Origin: Anaerolineae bacterium
GTDB lineage: Bacteria > Chloroflexota > Anaerolineae > Aggregatilineales > Phototrophicaceae
Length of the DNA: 37,472 nt
Reading direction: 5' to 3'
Assembly: GCA_013360465.1 (NCBI GenBank)
Contig: JABWBO010000078.1
Location: 1 to 37,472, forward strand
Position 1 is the first letter of the stretch, and each line of letters starts with the position of its first letter. The notes under the pieces were generated by a model, which searched no databases, was not told where the DNA came from, and saw only the letters and a list, made by a program, of their open reading frames with translations. Below are positions 1,939 to 20,885 of the stretch, in pieces. A program made the translations under genes and the position numbers.

Positions 1939-2430
1939 TCAGGTTTTCGATGCAGGAAGCAGCCGCTTGACCATCGTCGCCGATCCGCCTTCCAGCGCGA
2001 CCGTCTCGAAGCCCAGCCGCTCATAGAGCCGGCGCGCCGGGTTGGTCCAGACCACGCTCAGGCTGACCTGCGCGGCGTCGGCGCTGAGTTCGCCCAGCAG
2101 GCGTTCCAGCAGCAGCGAGCCGATCCCCGCGCCGCGCCAGCCGGGCAGCAGGGCGATGCTCAGTTCCGGCGTGTCGTCATCGACATAGCCGTAGCCGCGC
2201 ATTCGCCGCGCCCAGGCAGCGCCGATCGGCTGGTCGCCGGCGGTGGCGATCACCCCCCGGTCGCCCGCCCGCCCGAAATCGGCGGCATACGGCGCGATGT
2301 CCGGCAGGTGGACGATCTCCGGCGGCAGCGGCGGATCGCCCGGCGCGACATAGATGGCGTGGTAGAGCGCCGTCCACAGAAATGCCTGATGCGCGGCGGT
2401 CAGCGGGCGAAGGACGACGTTTGCGGGCAC
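1939..2430 (-). CDS. GNAT-family N-acetyltransferase
   Basis: A 163-residue single-domain GNAT protein. The acetyl-CoA pyrophosphate loop is visible as PGWRGAGIGSLLLERLL (motif A, R-G-A-G-I-G), followed by LSVVWTNPARRLYERLGFE, the usual motif B with the final Tyr/Gly-Phe turn. The substrate cannot be told; small-molecule amines or protein N-termini are typical. The start is GTG at 2430, three bases after the stop of the RNA methyltransferase homologue, so the two are almost certainly cotranscribed and perhaps translationally coupled. It is the last gene of a three-gene minus-strand operon and ends 7 bp from the convergent CAP gene, with no room for a long terminator. Confidence 0.85.
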   Translation of the reverse strand: MPANVVLRPLTAAHQAFLWTALYHAIYVAPGDPPLPPEIVHLPDIAPYAADFGRAGDRGVIATAGDQPIGAAWARRMRGYGYVDDDTPELSIALLPGWRGAGIGSLLLERLLGELSADAAQVSLSVVWTNPARRLYERLGFETVALEGGSATMVKRLLPASKT

Positions 2431-2433
2431 GAA

Positions 2434-3687
2434 CTAATCCCGTTTTCGCTCGAAGCGGGCGACGGTATCGACATAGGCAGTCTGCGGGGCAAGATCGACG
2501 GGCTGCGCGGCGCTCAGGTGGTAGCCTGCGCGCTTCAGCCGTTTGGCGTCGCGCGCCAGCGACGCCGGATCGCTGCTGACGTAGACGATGCGCTCCGGCG
2601 CGTGTTCCGCCAGCAGACTCACCCCCTCGTCGCCCAGCCCCGACGACGGCGGATCGACGGCGGCGGCGGCGTAGTACTCTTCCAGCGCCGGCAGCACCGC
2701 CTCGACCACGCCCTCGATCACCTCGACGTGATCGAATTCGGCGAGGTTCTCATCGGCGTCGGTGGCGGCGGGCGGGTAGCTTTCGACGACGGTGACGAAG
2801 GCGGCGGTTTCGGCAGCGAACGCCCCGAACACCCCGACTCCCGCGTAGAGGTCGAGTACCGCCTCGCCCGGTCGGATGGCGAGCAGGGTTCCCACCGTCC
2901 GCGCCAGCACATCGACGCCCTGGACGTTGGGGCGGAAGGCGCTCCCGGCGGTGGCGCGGAACCAGCGATCCCCGACCCGGTAGCGGGTGTGCGAATCGCC
3001 GATCAGGTTCATCGGCTCGTTATCGGGCAGGATGATGTTGACGCTGGCGGGGAAATCGGCTTCCAGTTCCGGCGCATCCCCTTCAGTCTTCAGCCAGAGG
3101 ATGATCATGCACGCGCCGTCGCCGCCCATCTCCAGCCGCACCCGCTTGATGCCGGTCAGATCGAGGTCGAGCTGCTCGCTCAGCGCCAGCAGATCGGGAT
3201 GCGTGACCGGACATTCGCTCACCGGCACGATCCGCCCCTCGTCGCTGGATGGCAGACCGAGGCGCAGGTCGTCGGTGACGGTGTAGGTGATGTGATAGTT
3301 ATAACCCCACGCTTCCGGCGCGGGCAGAGGCAGGAGCAGGGCGCGCCCGATCTCCGCGTCGGTCAGCCCGCCGAGGCGCGAAAGTTGGTCGGCGAGGATG
3401 TCGTGCTTGAGCGCCCGCTGCGCCTCATAGGCGATATGCTGCCACTGACAGCGCCCGCAGCGGCGCGGTCCGAAGTGCCCGCAGACGGGATAGACGCGAT
3501 CTGCCGACGCTTCGAGCAGCGCGACACCCTCGGCGACTGCGCCCCGGTCGCCGGTCGAGATCAAACGCGCCCGCACCCGTTCGCCGGGGATAGTAAACGG
3601 GACGAAGACCGGCTTTCCTTTGTGGAACGCCAGCCCCCGCCCCCCGGCGGCGATATCCTCGATGGTAAGTTCGACTAGTTCCGGCAA
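2434..3687 (-). CDS. TrmA/RlmD-type RNA m5U methyltransferase homologue with altered catalytic residues
   Basis: About 417 residues with the domain order of 23S rRNA uracil-C5 methyltransferases: an N-terminal TRAM domain (VELTIEDIAAGGRGLAF), iron-sulfur cluster cysteines C69, C77, C80 and C159, and a C-terminal Rossmann fold with the SAM loop LDLYAGVGVFGAFAA and a DPPSSGLG motif. The family's nucleophilic Cys sits in VSCxPxxLARD; here the codons read V-S-S-D-P-A-S-L-A-R-D (Ser372). The general-base Glu of the QTxHVE motif is replaced in QTAYVD (Asp406, with His changed to Tyr). The frame is intact, so this is a substituted protein and not a decayed gene. TTG at 3687 is chosen because GAGG lies a few bases upstream; GTG at 3714 would add nine residues but overlaps the upstream gene and lacks a ribosome site. 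Methyltransferase activity is doubtful; RNA binding by TRAM is still plausible. Confidence 0.85.
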   Translation of the reverse strand: MPELVELTIEDIAAGGRGLAFHKGKPVFVPFTIPGERVRARLISTGDRGAVAEGVALLEASADRVYPVCGHFGPRRCGRCQWQHIAYEAQRALKHDILADQLSRLGGLTDAEIGRALLLPLPAPEAWGYNYHITYTVTDDLRLGLPSSDEGRIVPVSECPVTHPDLLALSEQLDLDLTGIKRVRLEMGGDGACMIILWLKTEGDAPELEADFPASVNIILPDNEPMNLIGDSHTRYRVGDRWFRATAGSAFRPNVQGVDVLARTVGTLLAIRPGEAVLDLYAGVGVFGAFAAETAAFVTVVESYPPAATDADENLAEFDHVEVIEGVVEAVLPALEEYYAAAAVDPPSSGLGDEGVSLLAEHAPERIVYVSSDPASLARDAKRLKRAGYHLSAAQPVDLAPQTAYVDTVARFERKRD

Positions 3688-3688
3688 A

Positions 3689-4315
3689 TTAGCCCTCGAC
3701 CGGAATTTCCACACCGGCGGGGTTGCGCAGCAGACCGCGCTCCGCCCACACCCAGCCCTGAACGGCGCGCCCGGCGCAGGTCGCCCGCACCTTGATCCAG
3801 GTGGCGTCAGACTGGTTCAGCGCCAGCACCAGGTAGAAACGGTCGCCGGTGATGTCGCACAGCACCTCGCCCTCGCCGGTGAGTTCGTCGTAGAGCGGGG
3901 CGGCATAGCCGATATACAGCGCCGGCGAGAGCAGCGTCCCATCCGAATCGACGATCGGCGTCCCACGCAGATCACCGCGCACGATCACGAATTCGTCCTT
4001 GACCCACCCCTCATAGCCGCCGACCTCGACGTACCACCAGGCGAGACCGTCCTCGCGCCCGTTGGAGCCGCGCACGATCAGGTGGGTTCCGCCGTCGAGG
4101 ATGGCGACCGGCGTGGTGCGGGCGGAGTCGCCGCTGCGCAGGAAGAGGTTGTCGGTGTTGACGATCAGGTATCCGGGCAGCGCCTTCACCGTGTTGATGT
4201 TGTTGACGGGACGGGGTAGTTCGGCGTTCGGGTCATACTGGGCGACGGCGGCAGACGCCAGCGCCAGGCAGAGCGCGGTCAGAAGGATCAGCAAAAAAGG
4301 ACGGGGCATACGCAT
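3689..4315 (-). CDS. Secreted SH3-like (bacterial SH3) domain protein
   Basis: The chosen start is ATG at 4315, with AGGAG eight bases upstream; the open frame extends 21 codons further back without support. The product has 208 residues: a signal peptide (MPRPFLLILLTALCLALASA, cleavage near AVAQ), then a bacterial SH3-like module recognisable by LIVNTDNLFLRSGDS, GTHLIVRGSNGR, WWYVEVGGYEGWVKDEFV. A second, weaker module follows, ending in TWIKVRATCAGRAVQGWVWAERGLL. Such modules usually bind cell-surface polymers; the ligand is unknown. It is the first gene of the operon and its stop abuts the start of the RNA methyltransferase homologue. Confidence 0.75.
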   Translation of the reverse strand: MRMPRPFLLILLTALCLALASAAVAQYDPNAELPRPVNNINTVKALPGYLIVNTDNLFLRSGDSARTTPVAILDGGTHLIVRGSNGREDGLAWWYVEVGGYEGWVKDEFVIVRGDLRGTPIVDSDGTLLSPALYIGYAAPLYDELTGEGEVLCDITGDRFYLVLALNQSDATWIKVRATCAGRAVQGWVWAERGLLRNPAGVEIPVEG

Positions 4316-4540
4316 GGCGTTCACTCCTGTGGCAGTTCTTGACGCTTCATTGTGACGCAATTTGCCGTCTCGTGCCAACGGCGCTGCGTCCCGCGTCGTG
4401 TTCCGGCTTCATGCGGCTTAACCGAGGCGTAGGGTAATCGTTGCACAGCCGGTTGGTTTACGGTTTTCATACCGTGATATACTGTGGGTTGTGTCTGAGG
4501 CGATATCCCCCACATCAAATCGGACCAGGCTTCCCCGAAA

Positions 4541-11941: not shown

Positions 11942-12859
11942 TTATTCGCTGGGGCGGCGCGCTTCGATGACCACCCAGTCGCCCTGCTGGCGGCGGTTGA
12001 ACGGCAGAAGCCCGACCCTGCGCAGCGCGGTTTCGACTTCGTCGGACTGTTCGACCAGGATGCCGCTGAAGATGCCGACGCCGCCCGGACGCAGCACATC
12101 GCCGAGCGGCTGATCGCACATGCCGATGATGACCCGCGCCAGGATGTTCGCCAGCAGCAGGTCGAAGCGACGCGGCGAGTGCAGGACCGTCTCCAGGCTG
12201 CCCTGCTGCACGACGATCCGCTCGGTGGTCCCATTCTGCGCCACGTTAGCAGCGCCGACTTCGACGGCGACGGAGTCGATGTCCACCGCCAGTACATCGT
12301 GAGCGCCGAGCTTCGCCGCCGCAATCGCCAGGATGCCCGACCCGGTCCCCAGGTCGAAGACCTTGATCCCCGGTTTGACGTGATCTTCCAGCGCCTCCAG
12401 GCAGAGCTGGGTGGTCGGGTGAGTGCCGGTTCCGAACGCCATGCCGGGATCGAGCGCGATCACCACGTCGTCCGGATGGGTTTCGACCTCCACCCAGATC
12501 GGGCGGATGAGGATGCGCCGTCCCAGGCGAATTGGGTGATAATGCGCCTTCCAGGCTTCCGCCCAGTCCGTTTCTTCGACGATGCGAAAGGTTGGTTCGG
12601 GGAACGGATACATCATGCGCATGTAGGTCAGCGCTTCAGCGAACTGCCGCTGTGCTTCCGGGGCGGCGGCGTCGTCCGGCAGGTAGGCGCGCACCGCCAG
12701 GGTGGTCGCCGGCGGCACCTGATCTTCGTCGAGCTTGTCCGGGGGGATGCCTTCATGTTCGACGGCGACGCCCTGGTAGCCGTAGCGGTTCAGCAGTTCG
12801 GCAGCGGCTTCGGCGGCTTCGCCGTCGACGCGCAGGGTGATTTCAATCCATCGGGTCAT
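11942..12859 (-). CDS. prmA: Ribosomal protein L11 methyltransferase
   Basis: 305 residues from ATG at 12859 (MTRWIEITLRVDGEAAEAAAELL), where the family's N-terminal L11-binding domain normally begins; the frame is open for 20 further codons with other starts at 12889 and 12919. The C-terminal Rossmann domain has IALDPGMAFGTGTHPTTQLCLEALE, VFDLGTGSGILAIAAAKLGA (SAM loop), VLAVDID and LLANILARVI. PrmA trimethylates several amino groups of ribosomal protein L11. The gene is followed at 30 bases by the TMEM175-like gene. The whole family pattern is present with no odd residues. Confidence 0.9.
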   Translation of the reverse strand: MTRWIEITLRVDGEAAEAAAELLNRYGYQGVAVEHEGIPPDKLDEDQVPPATTLAVRAYLPDDAAAPEAQRQFAEALTYMRMMYPFPEPTFRIVEETDWAEAWKAHYHPIRLGRRILIRPIWVEVETHPDDVVIALDPGMAFGTGTHPTTQLCLEALEDHVKPGIKVFDLGTGSGILAIAAAKLGAHDVLAVDIDSVAVEVGAANVAQNGTTERIVVQQGSLETVLHSPRRFDLLLANILARVIIGMCDQPLGDVLRPGGVGIFSGILVEQSDEVETALRRVGLLPFNRRQQGDWVVIEARRPSE

Positions 12860-12965
12860 GGGGTGTGGGTGCGTCTCGCTAGTGGGCATCAATAAACCGC
12901 TGCTATTGTAGCGCGCCACCGCCCTCGCCGGTAGACGCGCACATAATTGTCCTCGCCCAGCAGGA

Positions 12966-14033
12966 TCACTTTCCGCGTTCCATCGCCAGCAGGTGTTTCT
13001 TGCGTTCCGATCCCCAGCGGTAGTGCCCGATCACGCCATCGCCGCGCACCACCCGGTGGCAGGGGATGATCAGCGCGGCTTGATTTTCGGCGCAGGCGTT
13101 GCCGACCGCGCGGGCGGCTTTGGGCGCGTCGATGGCGCGGGCGATTTCGGCATAGGTGCGCGTCTCGCCATAAGGAATCTGGCGCAGCGCCTCCCATACG
13201 CGGCGCTGAAACGCCGTCGCGCGGATGTCCAGCGGCAAGTCGAGATGGGGCGTCTCGCCGTTCAGGTAGCGGTTGATCGCCGTCAGCATCGGGTGTAGCG
13301 CCGCGTCATCCTGGCGAATCACCGCCGCCGGGAATTCGCGTGCCAGGTCTTCGAGCAGCGCCGCGCCTGTGTCGCCCAGTTTGACGGCGCAGACGCCGCG
13401 CGCCGTCATGCCGACCAGCAGCACCCCCAGCGGGCAGCGGGCGGCGGCGAAGGCGATCTCCACCGGCGCGCCTTCACGGTAGACGGTGGGCGTCATGCCC
13501 AGATGATCGTCGGCGCGGGCGTAGACCTGGCTGTTGGAAGAATAGCCGGCGGCGTAGATGGCGTCGGCGACGCTGCCGGCGCTCTTGAGTTCCTGTTTGA
13601 ACGCCCGCATGCGCGCCGCATCGACGTAGGCTGCCGGGGTGACGCCGATGATGCGTTTGAAGGTGCGGTGCAGGTGGAAGGGGCTGATGTGAAACGCCGC
13701 CGCCAGATCGTCCAGGGTGATCCGCTCGTCGCGCGCGTGGGCGTCGATGTAGCGGCAGACTTCGGCGGCAAGCTGCGCGTGAGGGTCGATGTCATCAGGG
13801 CGGCAGCGCTTGCAGGCGCGAAAACCCGCCGCGCGGGCGGCATCGGCGTCACGATAGAACGTGACGTTTTCGCGCCGGGGGGTGCGCGCCTTGCAGGAAG
13901 GACGGCAGTAAATGCCGGTGGTCTTGACCGCCACGAAGAACGCCCCGTCATAGCGGGCGTCATCGTCGAGGACGGCTTGCCACATGCGGTTTTCGTCGAG
14001 CGGGTCGCGGGGGGCGTCTTGGGGAGTCATCAT
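12966..14033 (-). CDS. ada: Bifunctional DNA alkylation-repair protein and regulator Ada
   Basis: 355 residues with the full Ada architecture. The N-terminal zinc domain has Cys43, Cys47 (GIYCRPSCKART) and Cys74, Cys77 (ACKRCRPDD); one of these accepts methyl groups from phosphotriesters. An AraC-type helix-turn-helix follows (about 95-185: LDDLAAAFHISPFHLHRTFKRIIGVTP). The C-terminal O6-methylguanine methyltransferase domain has IPYGETRTYAEIARAI and the active-site PCHRV with Cys325. After methylation of the N-terminal Cys the protein activates its own and other repair genes. AGGATGAG precedes a doubled ATG at 14033/14030. It appears monocistronic; prmA starts 106 bases downstream. Confidence 0.93.
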   Translation of the reverse strand: MMTPQDAPRDPLDENRMWQAVLDDDARYDGAFFVAVKTTGIYCRPSCKARTPRRENVTFYRDADAARAAGFRACKRCRPDDIDPHAQLAAEVCRYIDAHARDERITLDDLAAAFHISPFHLHRTFKRIIGVTPAAYVDAARMRAFKQELKSAGSVADAIYAAGYSSNSQVYARADDHLGMTPTVYREGAPVEIAFAAARCPLGVLLVGMTARGVCAVKLGDTGAALLEDLAREFPAAVIRQDDAALHPMLTAINRYLNGETPHLDLPLDIRATAFQRRVWEALRQIPYGETRTYAEIARAIDAPKAARAVGNACAENQAALIIPCHRVVRGDGVIGHYRWGSERKKHLLAMERGK

Positions 14034-14149
14034 CTCATCCTGTCTGCTCTGTTCGATGATGATCCTAAGCTTTTTCGCCTGGCAACGCGCGCCTGATCTT
14101 GCTCAGTAATTCCAGCATCGAGAGAGGAGTCCCTGCCAGAAAGCGGGGT

Positions 14150-14494
14150 TTATTCTTCGTCAGACGCGGGTAGCAATGTGGATAAATGCGCTGCCAGCGC
14201 AGGAATATCATTCTGAATGACATCCCAGACGATATCTACATCGATGTTGAAATACTCATGAATGACTCGATTACGCATTCCAGCCATCGCCGCCCAGTCT
14301 ACGGCGCTGTGGTTCTCTTTGGCTTGGCTCGACAATAGACGGCTTGCCTCACCGATTACCTGGATTTCGCGGATGACAGCACTCTTCGTTTTCTCGTCGT
14401 GTTCGAAAGCAGCAAAATCTAGCTTCCCGACGAACTCCAGGATACGCCGCGCTGCTATCAGCACATCAAGCAGCAGAACCTCATCATTCCTCAT
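14150..14494 (-). CDS. hepT: HepT-like HEPN-domain RNase toxin
   Basis: 114 residues, all helical, of the DUF86/HepT type. The HEPN active motif RX4HXY is exact: Arg74, His79, Tyr81 in RNRVIHEYFNID. The N-terminal helix LLLDVLIAARRILEFVGKLDF and EIQVIGEASRLLS are standard for the family. HepT cleaves RNA and is neutralised by AMP transfer from its MntA partner to the motif Tyr. The gene overlaps the MntA gene by 11 bases and follows it, so it is translated together with the antitoxin. Confidence 0.9.
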   Translation of the reverse strand: MRNDEVLLLDVLIAARRILEFVGKLDFAAFEHDEKTKSAVIREIQVIGEASRLLSSQAKENHSAVDWAAMAGMRNRVIHEYFNIDVDIVWDVIQNDIPALAAHLSTLLPASDEE

Positions 14495-14807
14495 AGATCA
14501 CCTGCGCGGAGTCGAGAATCATCCGGCGGCGCAAATAGTTTGGGCTGTCTTCGATACTGCGACGCGTCATGACATCGACTTCACGACCGAGCCATGCCTG
14601 CAACTCATCTCCAAGCGCGATCCATTCGGCAAGATGGATGGTTGTTCCGGCACGAAAAGTCACCAGAACGTCAACGTCGCTGCCGTCATGAAAGTCGTCG
14701 CGCAGTACCGATCCAAAAAGGGCAAACTGCACGATATTCCATCGCCGACAGAATGCACGGAGTTCATCTGGGTGAATGTCAATCTGTATCGAAATCGAGG
14801 CTGTCAT
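14484..14807 (-). CDS. mntA: MntA-like nucleotidyltransferase antitoxin
   Basis: 107 residues, a minimal nucleotidyltransferase. The catalytic motif GSX10DXD is exact: Gly32-Ser33, ten residues, Asp44-Val45-Asp46 (FGSVLRDDFHDGSDVDVLV). A further acidic position lies in REVDVMTRRSIED, as in the family. It would silence the adjacent HepT by AMPylating its active-site Tyr. It is the first gene of the pair, 27 bases from the dnaJ end on the other side of its start. Such modules are often acquired by transfer; the pair has slightly lower GC than its neighbours by eye. Confidence 0.9.
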   Translation of the reverse strand: MTASISIQIDIHPDELRAFCRRWNIVQFALFGSVLRDDFHDGSDVDVLVTFRAGTTIHLAEWIALGDELQAWLGREVDVMTRRSIEDSPNYLRRRMILDSAQVIYEE

Positions 14808-14834
14808 AACCGCTCTTGCCCCTCGCAGCGCTGA

Positions 14835-15992
14835 TCAGTTCGGGGCGTTCTCGCCGGACAGGAAATCCATCACCCGGTCGAAGAAACCTTTGCCGCGCGC
14901 CTGCGGTTCGACCTCGCTGCCCATCGTCTTGGCGAGCTTCTCGAACAGCCCTCGCTGCTCGTCGGTCAGCTTGGTGGGCACTTCGACGTTGACGTAGACC
15001 AGTTGATCGCCGCGTCCATAGCTGCTGCCGTCACTGCGCAGACGTGGCATACCCTTGCCCCTCAGCCGGAAGACCTTGCCGGTCTGTGTGCCGGCAGGAA
15101 TCCCCAGTTCGACATCGCCATCGACGGTTGGCACGTGAATCTTGTCGCCCAGCGCCGCCTGCGCCACGTTGACCGAGATGTCCAGGATGATGTCGCTGTC
15201 CCGGCGCTTGAAGTATTCGTGTTCCTGCACCCGCACCACGACGTACAGGCTGCCCATGGACGCGCCCTTCTCGCCCGTGTCGCCTTCGCCGCGCACCTGA
15301 ATTTGCAGCCCGTCGGCGACTCCGCCGGGGATCTGCACGTCCAGGCTCACTTTACGGCGCAGCCGACCGCTGCCCTTGCAGGCTGCACAGGGGGTGGGGA
15401 TGGTCTCGCCGCGCCCATTACAGCGCGGACAGGTCGCGACCTGCACCATCGACCCCAGGAAGGTCTGCTGCACCTGACGGACTTCGCCGGTCCCTGCGCA
15501 CTGGACGCATTTGATCGGCTGCGTGCCGGGCTGCGCGCCATTGCCGCCGCAGGTGTCGCACACTTCCATGCGCTCGAATTCGACCGTCTTGTTGACGCCG
15601 AAGACCGCCTCTTCGAAGGTGATGGTGACCTCGATCCGGCGGTCCTGCCCAGGACGTGGACCACGCCGCCGCCCCTGTCGGGCTGCGCCGCCGAAGTTGT
15701 TGAAGAATTCCTCGAAAATCTCTTCGAAACCGCCGAATCCTGCCCCGGCTCCGCCGAAGCCGCCCGCGCCGTTGTTGACGCCGGCGTGTCCGAAGCGATC
15801 ATAGCGCGCACGTTTGTCGTCGTCGGAGAGTACCTCGTAAGCTTCGTTGATCTCTTTGAACTGATCTTCCGCTTCGGGGTTCTTGTTCACATCGGGGTGA
15901 AATTCGCGCGCCAGCTTGCGATAAGCCCGCTTGATGCTTTCCTTATCCGCGCCGCGCTGTACACCCAGTACTTCGTAGTAATCTCGCGCCAT
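14835..15992 (-). CDS. dnaJ: Chaperone protein DnaJ
   Basis: 385 residues, type I (class A) Hsp40. The J domain has His-Pro-Asp at 32-34 (REFHPDVN), followed by a Gly/Phe-rich linker ([25 protein letters not shown]). The zinc-finger region has four CxxCxGxG repeats ([32 protein letters not shown]), then two beta-sandwich substrate domains. It stimulates the DnaK ATPase and delivers unfolded clients. A GC-rich hairpin separates it from dnaK by 148 bases, which may lower its expression relative to dnaK. Confidence 0.96.
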
Positions 15993-16036
15993 ACCCCGCC
16001 TCGGTCATTTCTGTGCCACGCTGACGAATGGACAAA

Positions 16037-16069
16037 CGCCGAAAGGGGATGATCCCCCTTCGGCGCGCT
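16037..16069 (-). terminator. Intercistronic hairpin between dnaK and dnaJ
   Basis: Arms CGCCGAA (16037-16043) and TTCGGCG (16059-16065) continue after a one-base bulge into GGGG/CCCC with a six-base loop. Read on the minus strand it is followed by TTTGTCC, a weak T run. It could be a leaky terminator or an RNA processing/stability element. Confidence 0.45.
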
Positions 16070-16140
16070 TCTGAATCTCACCGCCGCGCCCGCCCTCGAT
16101 GTCGGGTCCGCCTGCACGGAGGACGGGCGCAGAGCGAGTT

Positions 16141-18036
<1,896 letters not shown>

Positions 18037-18069
18037 GCTCTTCACACTCCCATGCGATTGTGTTCAAGG

Positions 18070-18669
18070 TTACTGCGCGACCCGCACCAGCGCGGGACGC
18101 AAGACGCGATCTCCGACCAGGTAGCCTTTTTGCAGCGTGACGGTGACGGTCCCGGTTTCGAATTCGGGGTTGTCGTCCGTCCCAATCGCCTCGTGCCTGG
18201 ATGGGTCGAAGGGCTGTCCGGTCGGGTCGAGGATGGTGACGCTGTTGTTTTCCAGCACTCTGTAGAATTTGCGCAGGATCATGGCGACGCCGTTGACCCA
18301 GGCGTTCTCCGCCAGGTCTGTCGGCACGGTCCCCATCGCGCGTTCGAAGTCGTCCAGGACCGGCAGGACGGCTTTGAAGGCGTCCCCCGTCGCGTTATCG
18401 CGGCTGGCTTTCATGTCGCGTTCGATCCGCCGCTGATAGTTGGCGAATTCGGCGCGCTCCCGCTGCCATCCTTCGCGGTACTGATCCGCCTGCTCCTGGA
18501 GCTTCTGGTAGGCTTCCAGCGTCACTGTTTCCCCCTCTGCCTTCTGGACGGGCGCGTCTGATGCAGGGGCAGCGTCCTGGGTTGGGGTCCGCTCGGCGCT
18601 GTCTGCGCCGGAAGTATCGGTCTGGGCGACTTCCGCGTCATCACGGGTTTGCGTTTCGGAATTCGTCAC
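18070..18669 (-). CDS. grpE: Nucleotide exchange factor GrpE
   Basis: 199 residues. The acidic, low-complexity N-terminus (about 1-45) is followed by the long dimerising coiled coil (LEAYQKLQEQADQYREGWQRERAEFANYQRRIERD) and the beta domain (VLDDFERAMG, ILRKFYRVLENNSVTILDPTGQPFDPSRHEAIG, VTVTLQKGYLVGDRVLRPALVRVAQ). The start is GTG at 18669 with AGGAG seven bases upstream. It releases ADP from DnaK. It leads the grpE-dnaK-dnaJ operon. No CIRCE element is seen in front of it, but a different dyad is present. Confidence 0.95.
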   Translation of the reverse strand: MTNSETQTRDDAEVAQTDTSGADSAERTPTQDAAPASDAPVQKAEGETVTLEAYQKLQEQADQYREGWQRERAEFANYQRRIERDMKASRDNATGDAFKAVLPVLDDFERAMGTVPTDLAENAWVNGVAMILRKFYRVLENNSVTILDPTGQPFDPSRHEAIGTDDNPEFETGTVTVTLQKGYLVGDRVLRPALVRVAQ

Positions 18670-18716
18670 ACTGCGGCTCCTTCTCCTGCGGTCTGCATCT
18701 GCGATTCAAGACCAGG

Positions 18717-18750
18717 ATGTCCCGAACAATCTATAGCGAAGACGGGACAT
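18717..18750 (-). promoter_or_regulatory. Dyad around a -10-like element upstream of grpE
   Basis: Perfect eight-base arms ATGTCCCG (18717-18724) and CGGGACAT (18743-18750) separated by 18 bases. On the minus strand the spacer contains CTATAGAT, a -10-like hexamer (TATAGA); no good -35 is found. The dyad ends about 48 bases before the grpE start. It could be the operator of the chaperone operon. Confidence 0.4.
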
Positions 18751-18999
18751 GCCCCGCCCTCGACCGTGCAATCTTGTGACAGTCTAGCAGGGGAATCATA
18801 GAATTCCGTTAACGGCGCGCAAGAAGGACGCCAACAACCGCGCCCGCGCCGTGACAGCGGGAATTGGCTGAGCGCGATCTTGACGCCAGAACGCTATAAT
18901 AGAATGAGGTGGGCGGCGCTTCGCGCGCGACTTCGACGTGCAGGCGCTGCCTGACGACACCGGAATGCCGACAGGAACAGTTCAGACCGAGGTGCGCAG
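18751..18999. other. Intergenic region between grpE and the Uma2 remnant
   Basis: Divergent gap. It holds a perfect ten-base palindrome CCGTTAACGG (18806-18815) and a consensus TATAAT on the plus strand (18895-18900) about 100 bases before the Uma2 start; the only TTGACG nearby is spaced nine bases, too close for a -35. No CIRCE-type TTAGCACTC/GAGTGCTAA is present. No gene is seen. Confidence 0.5.
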
Positions 19000-19449
19000 A
19001 TGACGCTGGCAGTGTCTATCCCGATGGCGGAGGAAGCTTTCGACCGCTTCGTCGAGCTGCCGGAAAACCGGGACCGGCTGTTCGAATTCATTGGCGGGGA
19101 GATCCTTGAAGTACCGTCGAATCCTACTTCTTCGAATATTGGCTCAACGATCCTTGGCGAACTATACGTCTATCTCAAACAGAACGACATCGGCTATGTG
19201 ACCGGGGAGGCGGGCGGCTATCGCGTCTCTGGCGAACGCTACGCGCCAGATGTCGCTTTCATCCGCTACGAAAAGGGACCGCTCGCCACCAGCGGCTATC
19301 ACCCTCTGCCGCCCGATCTGGCGGTCGAGGTCGATTTTCCCTCGACGGCTATTCCTTCGCCGCCGCGCCGGACGATCCTTCGTCCGCTGCCGCGCCGCTG
19401 GGCAGGGTGGAATAGACCTGCCGCAGCAGATCGGTCATCAACCCGCTGA
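19000..19449 (+). pseudogene. Truncated Uma2-family (DUF820) nuclease-like gene
   Basis: Residues 1 to about 113 follow the Uma2 family: MAEEAFDRFVELPENRDRLFEFIGGEILEV, a central strand region YVTGEAGGYRVSGERYAPDVAFIR, and PLPPDLAVEV, the last being the acid strand of the PD-(D/E)xK-like core. From about 19340 the frame runs antisense through the 3' end of hrcA and encodes an Arg/Pro-rich tail unlike the family, so the conserved C-terminal Lys/Tyr helix and final strands are missing. Usual length is about 185-200 residues. A GAGGTG ribosome site precedes the ATG, so it could still be expressed, but I regard it as a broken gene. Confidence 0.7.
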
Positions 19450-20458
19450 CGTAGCCGACCACGCCAATCGCCCGCTCGTAATTGATATTGGTCGGTCCCA
19501 GTACGCCGACCGCGCCGCTGACCTGTCCTTCGATGCCGTAGCGGCTCAGCACCATGCTCAAGCGGCTGAGTTCTTCCCACTGCCCGTTCCCGGCGATCAC
19601 CACCTGCACCCGGTTGAGCATCGGCGTCAGTACGTCGTCCAGGATCATGTTCAGGATGGCGCGCTCTTCGATTACCCGAATTGCCTGCTGCGCGCCTTCG
19701 CTGCCGGGGAACAGCGTGACCACCTCTGAGAGTCCGTCGCCGAAGACCTGTCCTGACTGACGCGCGTCGCTCTGCTGCATGGCGTCGGCGACGAGATCGG
19801 CGATGTCGCGTTCCAGTAGGGTCATGCTGGCGCTGCGCACCCGCGCCTCGTTCACCGTCAGATTGCTCAGCAGCGTGTTCAGACGGTCGGCGGTCTCGCT
19901 CAGACGGGCTTGACCGACCGGTTCGGCGAGGGTGAGCATCTGCTGATGCACCATGCCCCCTCGCAGGACCAGCACCATCAGCACCAGCCGCCCATGAATG
20001 GCGATCAGCTCTAGATGCTTGAAGCGGTAGGTGGCGGCGCGCGGCGAGGTGACCAGTGCCGCCGTCTGCGCCACCCGCGCCAGGACGTTCGCCGCCTGCG
20101 CCATCTGCTGTTCGGAAGCCAGAGGCGCCTGCTTGACGCGGTCGTCGATCCAGCGCTGATCGCTGCTGTCCAGTGCATCGCTGTCGCGCTCCTGCACCAG
20201 ATGCATGACGAAATAGCGGTAGCCGGTCGCCGTCGGCACACGCCCGGCGGAGGTGTGCGGCTGCTGGATATAGCCCAATTCTTCCAGGCGCATCATTTCA
20301 TTGCGGATGGTCGCCGAGCTGAACGGCAGGTTGAAGCGATCCACCAGATATTTGGAGCTGACCGGTTCCGGTGAGTGAGTATATGCCTTCACGATGGAGG
20401 ACAGGATCGCTTCTTGCCGCTGGGTAAGTTCTGGGAGAACTGAGTCGTCAGGAGTCAT
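19349..20458 (-). CDS. hrcA: Heat-inducible transcription repressor HrcA
   Basis: 369 residues from ATG at 20458 (MTPDDSVLPELTQRQEAILSSIVKAY); the open frame upstream is not family-like. The N-terminal winged helix is clear: EPVSSKYLVDRFNLPFSSATIRNEMMRLEELGYIQQPHTSAGRVPTATGYRYFV. A GAF-like dimer domain follows with the family's late block YGIEGQVSGAVGVLGPTNINYERAIGVVGYVSGLMTDLL. HrcA represses chaperone operons by binding CIRCE. No Shine-Dalgarno is seen before the ATG. Its 3' end overlaps the Uma2 remnant. It is on the same strand as grpE-dnaK-dnaJ but about 680 bases away from it, not in the usual contiguous operon. Confidence 0.93.
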   Translation of the reverse strand: MTPDDSVLPELTQRQEAILSSIVKAYTHSPEPVSSKYLVDRFNLPFSSATIRNEMMRLEELGYIQQPHTSAGRVPTATGYRYFVMHLVQERDSDALDSSDQRWIDDRVKQAPLASEQQMAQAANVLARVAQTAALVTSPRAATYRFKHLELIAIHGRLVLMVLVLRGGMVHQQMLTLAEPVGQARLSETADRLNTLLSNLTVNEARVRSASMTLLERDIADLVADAMQQSDARQSGQVFGDGLSEVVTLFPGSEGAQQAIRVIEERAILNMILDDVLTPMLNRVQVVIAGNGQWEELSRLSMVLSRYGIEGQVSGAVGVLGPTNINYERAIGVVGYVSGLMTDLLRQVYSTLPSGAAADEGSSGAAAKE

Positions 20459-20504
20459 GCAGTTGTCAAAACATATCTCATCATCGGTGGACTGGCTGTA
20501 TCTC

Positions 20505-20533
20505 ATGGTAGCATAGGGCATACCGGTGGTCAA
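20505..20533 (-). promoter_or_regulatory. Candidate hrcA promoter
   Basis: On the minus strand TTGACC (20528-20533), 17-base spacer, TACCAT (20505-20510). This lies 47 bases before the hrcA ATG and inside the 103-base divergent gap shared with trxA. Confidence 0.45.
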
Positions 20534-20561
20534 AACGGTCATCGAAGGAGTATAGAGGTCA

Positions 20562-20885
20562 ATGGGCAGCAAGACGTTTGAAGTGAACCAGTTCGACGAA
20601 CAGGTCCTGAAGTCTGAAAAGCCGGTGCTGGTGGATTTCTGGGCGGAATGGTGCGGTCCCTGTCGGATGATCGCCCCGGTCGTCGATCAGATTGCGACGG
20701 AATATGGCGAGCAGCTCAAGGTTGGCAAGCTGGACGCCGACCAGTACCCGGAAGTGCTTCAATCCTACGGCATCATGGGCATTCCGACGCTGATCCTCTT
20801 CAAGGGCGGCAAGCCGGTCGTGCGCATCACCGGATTCCAGAACAAAGAGCGGATCACCGCGCAGCTCAAGCCGCATCTGAGCTGA
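20562..20885 (+). CDS. trxA: Thioredoxin
   Basis: 107 residues, a complete single-domain thioredoxin: VLVDFWAEWCGPCRMIAPVVDQIA with the WCGPC active site, KLDADQYPEVLQSYGIMGIPTLILFKGGKPV with the cis-Pro, and a C-terminal amphipathic helix. GAAGGAG lies upstream of ATG 20562. It is the general cytoplasmic dithiol reductant and the likely electron donor to CcdA. It is divergent from hrcA and ends at a clear terminator. Confidence 0.96.
   Translation: MGSKTFEVNQFDEQVLKSEKPVLVDFWAEWCGPCRMIAPVVDQIATEYGEQLKVGKLDADQYPEVLQSYGIMGIPTLILFKGGKPVVRITGFQNKERITAQLKPHLS

Follow-up and report, generated by a model that had tools for sequence, protein, structure and literature searches.

The window analysed here is a stretch of 37,472 nucleotides from an Anaerolineae bacterium (contig JABWBO010000078.1), and its minus strand holds, at 2434-3714, an open frame that the ORF list gives as 426 amino acids with a GTG start and that contains 0 internal stops. 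A TTG at 3687, 1 base from the stop codon of an upstream SH3-like gene, is an equally plausible alternative start and would yield 417 amino acids. Against the NCBIfam model TIGR00479 (the RlmD equivalog) the protein scores 188.4 bits, above the cut-off of 183.55, so that profile annotation would name the gene RlmD; 21 of the 32 A1 members pass E ≤ 6e-54, an approximate translation of that cut-off, and the Pfam PF05958 score of the window protein is 19.8, below the cut-off of 23. In the features below, counts come from a residue survey of 67 rows of the window's clade against 32 canonical rows, canonical meaning that the Cys is present.

2434..3714, minus strand: gene for a putative RlmD-like pseudoenzyme (ORF; TIGR00479; AlphaFold2 model)
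3511..3678, minus strand: TRAM/OB-fold beta-barrel, about residues 13-68 (PF01938, 20 bits, gathering score 21; strands in the model)
3448..3483, minus strand: first three Fe-S cluster Cys, C78, C86 and C89 (kept in 67/67, 67/67 and 65/67 clade rows)
3211..3213, minus strand: fourth cluster Cys, C168 (67/67 clade rows)
3298..3300, minus strand: N139 for a conserved Arg, RlmCD R127, an RNA contact (Arg in 32/32 canonical and 4/67 clade rows)
2932..2934, minus strand: R261 for the uracil-binding Gln, RlmCD Q283 (Arg in 65/67 clade rows)
2827..2859, minus strand: SAM-binding motif I, VLDLYAGVGVF (D288 in 64, Y290 in 67, G292 in 66, G294 in 67 and F296 in 55 of 67 clade rows)
2644..2655, minus strand: motif IV, DPPS, with D354 kept and the ribose-binding Arg changed to S357 (Asp in 64/67 clade rows; Arg in 5/67 against 32/32 canonical)
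2572..2574, minus strand: S381 (AGC), nucleophile position (Cys in 0/67 clade rows and, by group definition, 32/32 canonical)
2488..2490, minus strand: A409 for the Phe of MFPQT (Phe in 0/67 clade and 32/32 canonical rows)
2467..2475, minus strand: Y414 and D416 for the phosphate-binding His and general-base Glu (His 4/67, Glu 4/67; canonical 32/32 each)
3689..4378, minus strand: upstream SH3-like gene (PF08239, 26.6 bits, gathering score 27), sharing 26 bases with the RlmD-like gene when that gene begins at the GTG
1939..2430, minus strand: downstream GNAT acetyltransferase (PF13508, 43.6 bits), three bases after the RlmD-like gene

The TIGR00479 score, the fold and the four Fe-S Cys all place the window protein with RlmD/RumA; the catalytic Cys, the Glu base, the uracil-binding Gln and the ribose-binding Arg of that family are all absent from it. 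Its nucleophile region reads VYVSSDP (codons AGC AGC, 2572-2577), its late motif TAYVDT (D416, GAT, 2467-2469) and its equivalent of FxQVN AFRPN, with Gln replaced by Arg at R261, while DPPR has become DPPS (S357), MFPQT LAPQT (A409), the His a Tyr (Y414) and YR YN (N139, after Tyr138). The original prediction, made from the letters alone, had described a full-length, intact reading frame, and this was confirmed on the minus strand, its noted end at 3687 being the TTG start. The TRAM domain (its Pfam score slightly below the cut-off), four cluster Cys and SAM loop that it listed were likewise seen, and the Ser in place of the VSCxP nucleophile (S381, AGC) and YVD for the late HVE (D416, GAT) were borne out. 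It was wrong in assigning FRATAG to the FxQVN region, which reads FRPN; FRATAG belongs to an ordinary segment immediately before it, which most normal relatives have as FRVTAG. A sequencing error, which it had named as grounds for refutation, is unlikely: separately assembled genomes carry the same residues, including G006 with a protein 95% identical, and Cys is found in 0/67 clade rows. Judged by its sequence, the window gene is an intact homologue of RlmD/RumA in which Ser takes the nucleophile position and Asp that of the base.

An AlphaFold2 model (418 residues, with A1; no ligand in the model) reached a pLDDT of 92.8 and a pTM of 0.91. The top Foldseek match was RlmCD (5zq0; TM 0.89 by query length), RumA-RNA (2bh2) gave 0.86, and the VIA Z was 43.8 for 5zq0 and 43.7 for 2bh2_A (rmsd 2.5, 396 residues), a shared fold that is no proof of function.

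Across the clade, the nucleophile position is Ser in 28 rows, Gly in 26, Asp in 7, Ala in 5 and Pro in 1, and Cys in none of 67. This mixture suggests that position 381 is not a new nucleophile; as far as the alignment goes, it has given up its function and not simply exchanged Cys for Ser. The base position 416 is Asp in 48/67 and Glu in 4/67 rows, with T, S, H and G also found (L124 was scored G there though its gene end looks frame-shifted). Whether Ser and Asp are clade-wide, the check proposed at the outset, thus received a divided answer: Cys is missing throughout (67/67) and Asp is in the majority (48/67), whereas Ser occupies only 28/67. Gln is found at position 261 in 0/67 clade rows (Arg 65) and in 31/32 canonical rows, the remaining one having Arg; Phe259 is kept in 17/67 clade rows, and E311 is Glu in 60/67 and Asp in 6/67. 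Of 118 canonical columns conserved at 90% or more, 78 are kept at 80% or more in the clade, and among columns assigned to catalysis or the target base 8/9 are not kept, versus 32/109 of the others (Fisher p 0.0007, a descriptive value because the nine columns were picked after the table was seen, Phe409 being assigned by position only). Published passages on the RlmCD complexes describe F281, Q283, D381 and E443 as holding the uracil, R384 the ribose and E333 the SAM ribose, H441 and R127 as contacting the RNA backbone, and D381 (equivalent to D354) as lying near the methyl group, with D381A barely altering SAM binding (PMC6235398, PMC5614603); R127A is described as weakening RNA binding (PMC6235398). 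Set against the clade's losses, these roles suggest that most of the uridine pocket is gone and the SAM pocket is not. Not all losses go together among the loci aligned: Cys stays in L075, where Arg replaces Gln, and in L287, where Pro does, and Gln stays in L068 and L249, which lack Cys.

The host genome, G000 (5.9 Mb, 256 contigs, 97% complete), has a second clear homologue at C51:170202-171398, 40% identical and with FFQVN, DPPRAG, VSCDP and HIE intact, and through this normal copy the host can probably make m5U1939, as far as the motifs tell. We searched 61 genomes, comprising the host, 36 more of its family (f1) and 24 of the same order, and 59 gave a match at E ≤ 1e-10. A clade member is carried by 34/37 f1 genomes, with S, G, D, A or P at the nucleophile position in 33 of these 34 and a gene cut before the site in G034. 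Five carriers (G000, G006, G013, G016 and G035) have a normal RlmD beside the odd gene, and 29/34 have the odd gene only, a normal copy not being found; as 35/37 f1 drafts are at least 85% complete, assembly gaps alone are unlikely to explain these 29 absences. G002 carries only a normal, long-branched RlmD (L092), and in two further f1 genomes, G014 (78% complete) and G025 (94% complete), no RlmD homologue was found. The named loci used below are the best 80 of 423 confirmed, 67 non-Cys and 13 Cys, a set biased towards the query; their records are titled Anaerolineae, Aggregatilineales, Phototrophicales, Ardenticatenia, Chloroflexi bacterium and so on, and the class name rests on these titles.

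That the intact gene reflects selection, as had been suggested, is supported by this retention in 34/37 f1 genomes and by an NG86 dN/dS of 0.144 between the window gene and its G006 counterpart; the normal copies of the same two genomes give 0.17. Fifteen non-Cys pairs range from 0.026 to 0.268 and five canonical pairs from 0.059 to 0.17, and YN00 roughly agrees (highest non-Cys value 0.315; one pair without a YN00 value). In family f8, whose copies have Gln or Leu at the nucleophile site, the non-Cys genes (0.026-0.038) are under tighter constraint than the canonical copies of the same genomes (0.062-0.075).

With the four motif regions blanked, and rows of fewer than 330 residues and duplicates left out, a 109-row tree recovered the 67-row clade without Cys at an SH-aLRT of 99. 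A 235-row tree (class-wide outgroups, LG+G4; four re-fetched loci left out, and rows that kept fewer than 250 residues once blanked) and a 178-row tree under a mixture model, thinned from it by 57 rows, both needed ten changes between Cys and non-Cys within the class. Parsimony gives these changes no direction; the surrounding rows are canonical, however, and the ten therefore read naturally as ten losses. The f8 copies were sister to the window's clade with support of 98 (235 rows) and 97 (178 rows), a placement that was ambiguous in the 109-row tree, which lacks outgroups. The other non-Cys groups in the 235-row tree were three AHPQ rows (one titled Thermoflexus), L068 of G052, L081 of G060, f42 with eight rows, f22 with four, f24 with two, and f35, f32 and f38 with one each, every single-row case resting on one draft genome.

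Several of these groups deserve mention in their own right. The three AHPQ rows (L122, L136 and L147, genes of metagenome-assembled genomes) have Ala at the nucleophile position, His for Gln and Gln for Glu, and keep the RNA-binding Arg; by their residues, they are a separate loss within a canonical group. At the nucleophile position the f22 proteins (L308, L312, L313 and L315) have His (VAHNP); their Gln is replaced by Pro and their motif-IV Asp by Thr, the cluster Cys being kept, apparently a separate and stronger inactivation. The eight divergent f42 proteins (L249, L290, L294, L297, L302, L317, L318 and L322) form one clade; two of them keep the motif-IV Asp, four have N there and two R, and one cluster Cys is missing from L322. 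Besides f22 and these 6/8 f42 rows, f24 and f35 and f38 have also lost the motif-IV Asp.

As a control, a search of the class matched 172/199 genomes, and of the 130 loci read 18 were non-Cys, one of them a known f1 gene; matches not re-read were weaker or split, and most f1 and f8 genes were already in hand. A search of the phylum matched 109/151 genomes and gave 69 loci read, the unread matches being the weaker ones: all 54 loci of other classes keep Cys, Gln, Arg and Glu, and 1/15 of those from the window's class is non-Cys (in f42, already known). The proportions of 18/130 in the class and 0/54 in the other classes differ with a Fisher p of 0.0019, kinship being ignored. Within another class, the f69 homologues (L366, L367, L369 and L371) have four normal catalytic positions and no cluster Cys in the added alignment, and by sequence are the mirror image of the window's case.

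A conserved operon around the window gene itself was rejected: in tblastn at E ≤ 1e-6, the sister locus in G006 (L034/L102) is the only one of the 80 named loci to share its SH3, GNAT and abhydrolase neighbours, and L114 the only one to share its CAP-domain neighbour. A related gene (cluster 12) lies upstream of the RlmD-like gene in L104, L107, L112, L129, L131 and L172; in L104 this gene gives a match to the bacterial SH3 domain, as does the window's neighbour, and tblastn gave no link between the two. In one subclade, rsgA (17), prmC (20), prfA (18) and a DsbA-like gene (21) lie near members of the 67 named non-Cys loci, and none was found near the 13 Cys loci, which belong to other lineages and are no real control; this proximity reflects a single gene order inherited within the subclade and is hence weak evidence. 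An inositol-monophosphatase gene flanks 16/67 non-Cys and 4/13 Cys named loci, and a bacterial PH-domain gene 12/67 and 7/13. The f8 non-Cys copies are flanked by inositol-monophosphatase, PH-domain and glycosyltransferase genes, as are the canonical f4 loci L132 and L158, and thus appear to occupy the old rlmD locus. Elsewhere in the window, the minus strand at 11942-20572 holds a heat-shock cluster of HrcA, GrpE, DnaK and DnaJ and, after it, Ada and the ribosomal L11 methyltransferase PrmA, and a plus-strand ORF at 16483-18561 scores 528 bits to Pfam PF10712 (NAD-GH) antisense to HSP70/DnaK (16141-18045, minus strand, 859 bits), a match that looks like an antisense artefact.

With respect to the target and ALTERNATIVES, all 11 genomes that gave a match (of 61) have an identical 33-nt stretch around U1939, seven of them in f1 and six of those seven with the non-Cys gene only, so that a changed rRNA target was rejected for the matching genomes. 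The other 50/61 genomes, G000 included, had no match within 3 mismatches, presumably for the most part because drafts are missing 23S genes. In mollicutes, m5U1939 is made by RlmFO. TrmFO exceeded its cut-off in 51/61 genomes and never occurred twice in one genome, so that no RlmFO-like duplicate was seen and a TrmFO paralogue taking over m5U1939 was rejected; a dual-function TrmFO may make it.

On balance, we think it probable that the window gene encodes a pseudoenzyme derived from RlmD and retained for a role at RNA or the ribosome that does not depend on catalysis. By sequence, the nucleophile, the base and most uridine contacts have been replaced, while the SAM motif, the Asp of motif IV, the Fe-S ligands and the fold remain. 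In m5U synthesis the Cys attacks uracil C6 and the Glu acts as general base. Given this mechanism, the Cys-C6 adduct could not form and no m5U1939 would result, which supports the expectation that m5U formation should fail and leads us to infer that the window protein lacks this activity. Purifying selection acts on the gene, and the protein may bind 23S rRNA around U1939, or another structured RNA, through its TRAM and central domains and act as a chaperone or late assembly factor, SAM being a structural or regulatory ligand. For this reading speak the mixed residues at position 381, the concentration of losses in catalytic and target columns, the low dN/dS, the ten changes against 54/54 Cys loci in other classes, the RlmCD/RumA-like model, the nearby rsgA, prmC and prfA and the neighbours common to f8 copies and canonical f4 rlmD. 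Against it, the window's clade retains its SAM pocket and D354, which seems more than a pure scaffold needs, R261 is nearly invariant and looks like part of a working site, and the equivalent of RlmCD R127 is lost in 63/67 clade rows. E. coli knockouts of rRNA methyltransferases, rlmD included, are described as giving no assembly intermediates save in a few named cases (PMC7056703), which counts against a chaperone or assembly role, and with the motif-IV Asp lost in other lineages a single function for all non-Cys groups is not certain.

The features that fit a scaffold poorly make a new methyl chemistry the main rival, although we judge it unlikely: the SAM site would pass its methyl to an atom that needs no Cys adduct (a ring N, an exocyclic N or an O), with R261, D354 and D416 as the new site. 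Conservation of D288, Y290, G292 and G294 (64-67/67), Glu or Asp at 311 (66/67), D354 (64), R261 (65) and Asp416 (48) agrees with this, as does the reported place of RlmCD D381 near the methyl group, with SAM binding barely altered in D381A. Position 416, however, is also T, S, E, H or G in the clade, and the equivalent of D354 was lost in parallel lineages. Amino-methyltransferases have an aromatic residue at the fourth position of their DPPx motif, and the clade does not. It is rather doubtful that the clade has acquired a novel specificity as an RNA methyltransferase, with Arg261, Asp354 and in most cases Asp416 forming an active site that would use the inherited SAM pocket to methylate a different atom or base, leaving an undescribed rRNA modification across a whole Chloroflexota family.

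A function away from the ribosome, in which an Fe-S protein would serve tRNA, mRNA, a small molecule or redox chemistry, strikes us as improbable. It would suit a protein that keeps its Fe-S ligands and fold and not the target-base pocket, in a window where the SH3 and GNAT neighbours give no hint of ribosomes; the TRAM and central RNA-binding domains are kept in the model, however, and one subclade has ribosome-related neighbours. We give very little credence to a gene in decay covered by a normal paralogue. Such a paralogue together with decay in relatives had been named as the mark of a dying gene; the paralogue is there in the host (C51:170202-171398) and in four other f1 carriers of the gene, and decay was not seen. 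L124 looks frame-shifted near its end and five clade rows (G004, G024, G026, G029 and G030) have one stop within the match, their frames nevertheless spanning 419-464 amino acids. Against decay stand the absence of a detected normal copy in most f1 carriers, dN/dS well below 1 and cluster Cys kept in 65-67/67 rows; for the window gene itself, a frame without internal stop and an NG86 value of 0.144 against G006 likewise disfavour it. That m5U is still made, with Ser, Asp or water in place of the Cys, is hardly credible, for although the U1939 region is unaltered in the 11 matching genomes, six of them f1 genomes with the non-Cys gene only, the clade also has Gly, Ala or Pro at the nucleophile position and f8 has Gln or Leu, and the residues corresponding to Q283, R384, H441 and E443 have been lost as a set.

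The pseudoenzyme reading has relatives among known systems. E. coli RlmD/RumA (1UWV, 2BH2) shares the fold, TRAM domain, four cluster Cys and SAM motif with the window protein, which differs in lacking the Cys nucleophile, Glu base, uracil-binding Gln and ribose Arg. S. pneumoniae RlmCD (5ZQ0) shares the fold (Z 43.8) but is active and, in the sequence aligned, has no cluster Cys, whereas the window protein keeps them and has lost the catalytic residues. TrmA, which has no TRAM domain, differs in retaining catalysis. It belongs to the same superfamily, folds RNA independently of catalysis and is called a tRNA chaperone in a review (PMC11301382). Bovine TRMT2B, also of the superfamily, has Cys changed to Tyr, is otherwise conserved and has been proposed to be a chaperone (PMC7237155); it is a mitochondrial m5U enzyme, and the loss is mostly confined to one mammalian subfamily, whereas here a bacterial RlmD is affected in a whole family, at many residues and in about ten events. 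For METTL15, catalysis is described as dispensable (PMC11197891), and we count TrmA, TRMT2B and METTL15 as precedents in favour of a pseudoenzyme. Mycoplasma TrmFO-like proteins, paralogues of an m5U enzyme with the catalytic Cys replaced, are described as of unknown function (PMC7226160) and differ in belonging to a separate flavin/folate-dependent family. An inactive m5U-superfamily protein under selection is thus of a kind already known from TRMT2B; for a clade-wide, recurrent inactive bacterial RlmD we found no earlier description in the open-access literature searched, and one elsewhere is possible.

These proteins also carry a warning for annotation, since naming them RlmD by profile score credits them with an m5U1939 activity of which they are most likely incapable. 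About ten separate inactivations within one class suggest that RlmD in Anaerolineae had a catalysis-independent role sufficient to retain the protein. In this large bacterial group, a protein that normally methylates ribosomal RNA has repeatedly lost the parts required for its chemistry and stayed under selection, which suggests a further function that has nothing to do with the methyl mark. Are rRNA methyltransferases retained for the modification they leave or for the act of binding? The question is an old one, and engineered mutants have been the usual way to ask it. In this class the catalytic mutant seems to have arisen in nature some ten times with the protein retained, and the question thereby becomes open to direct test.
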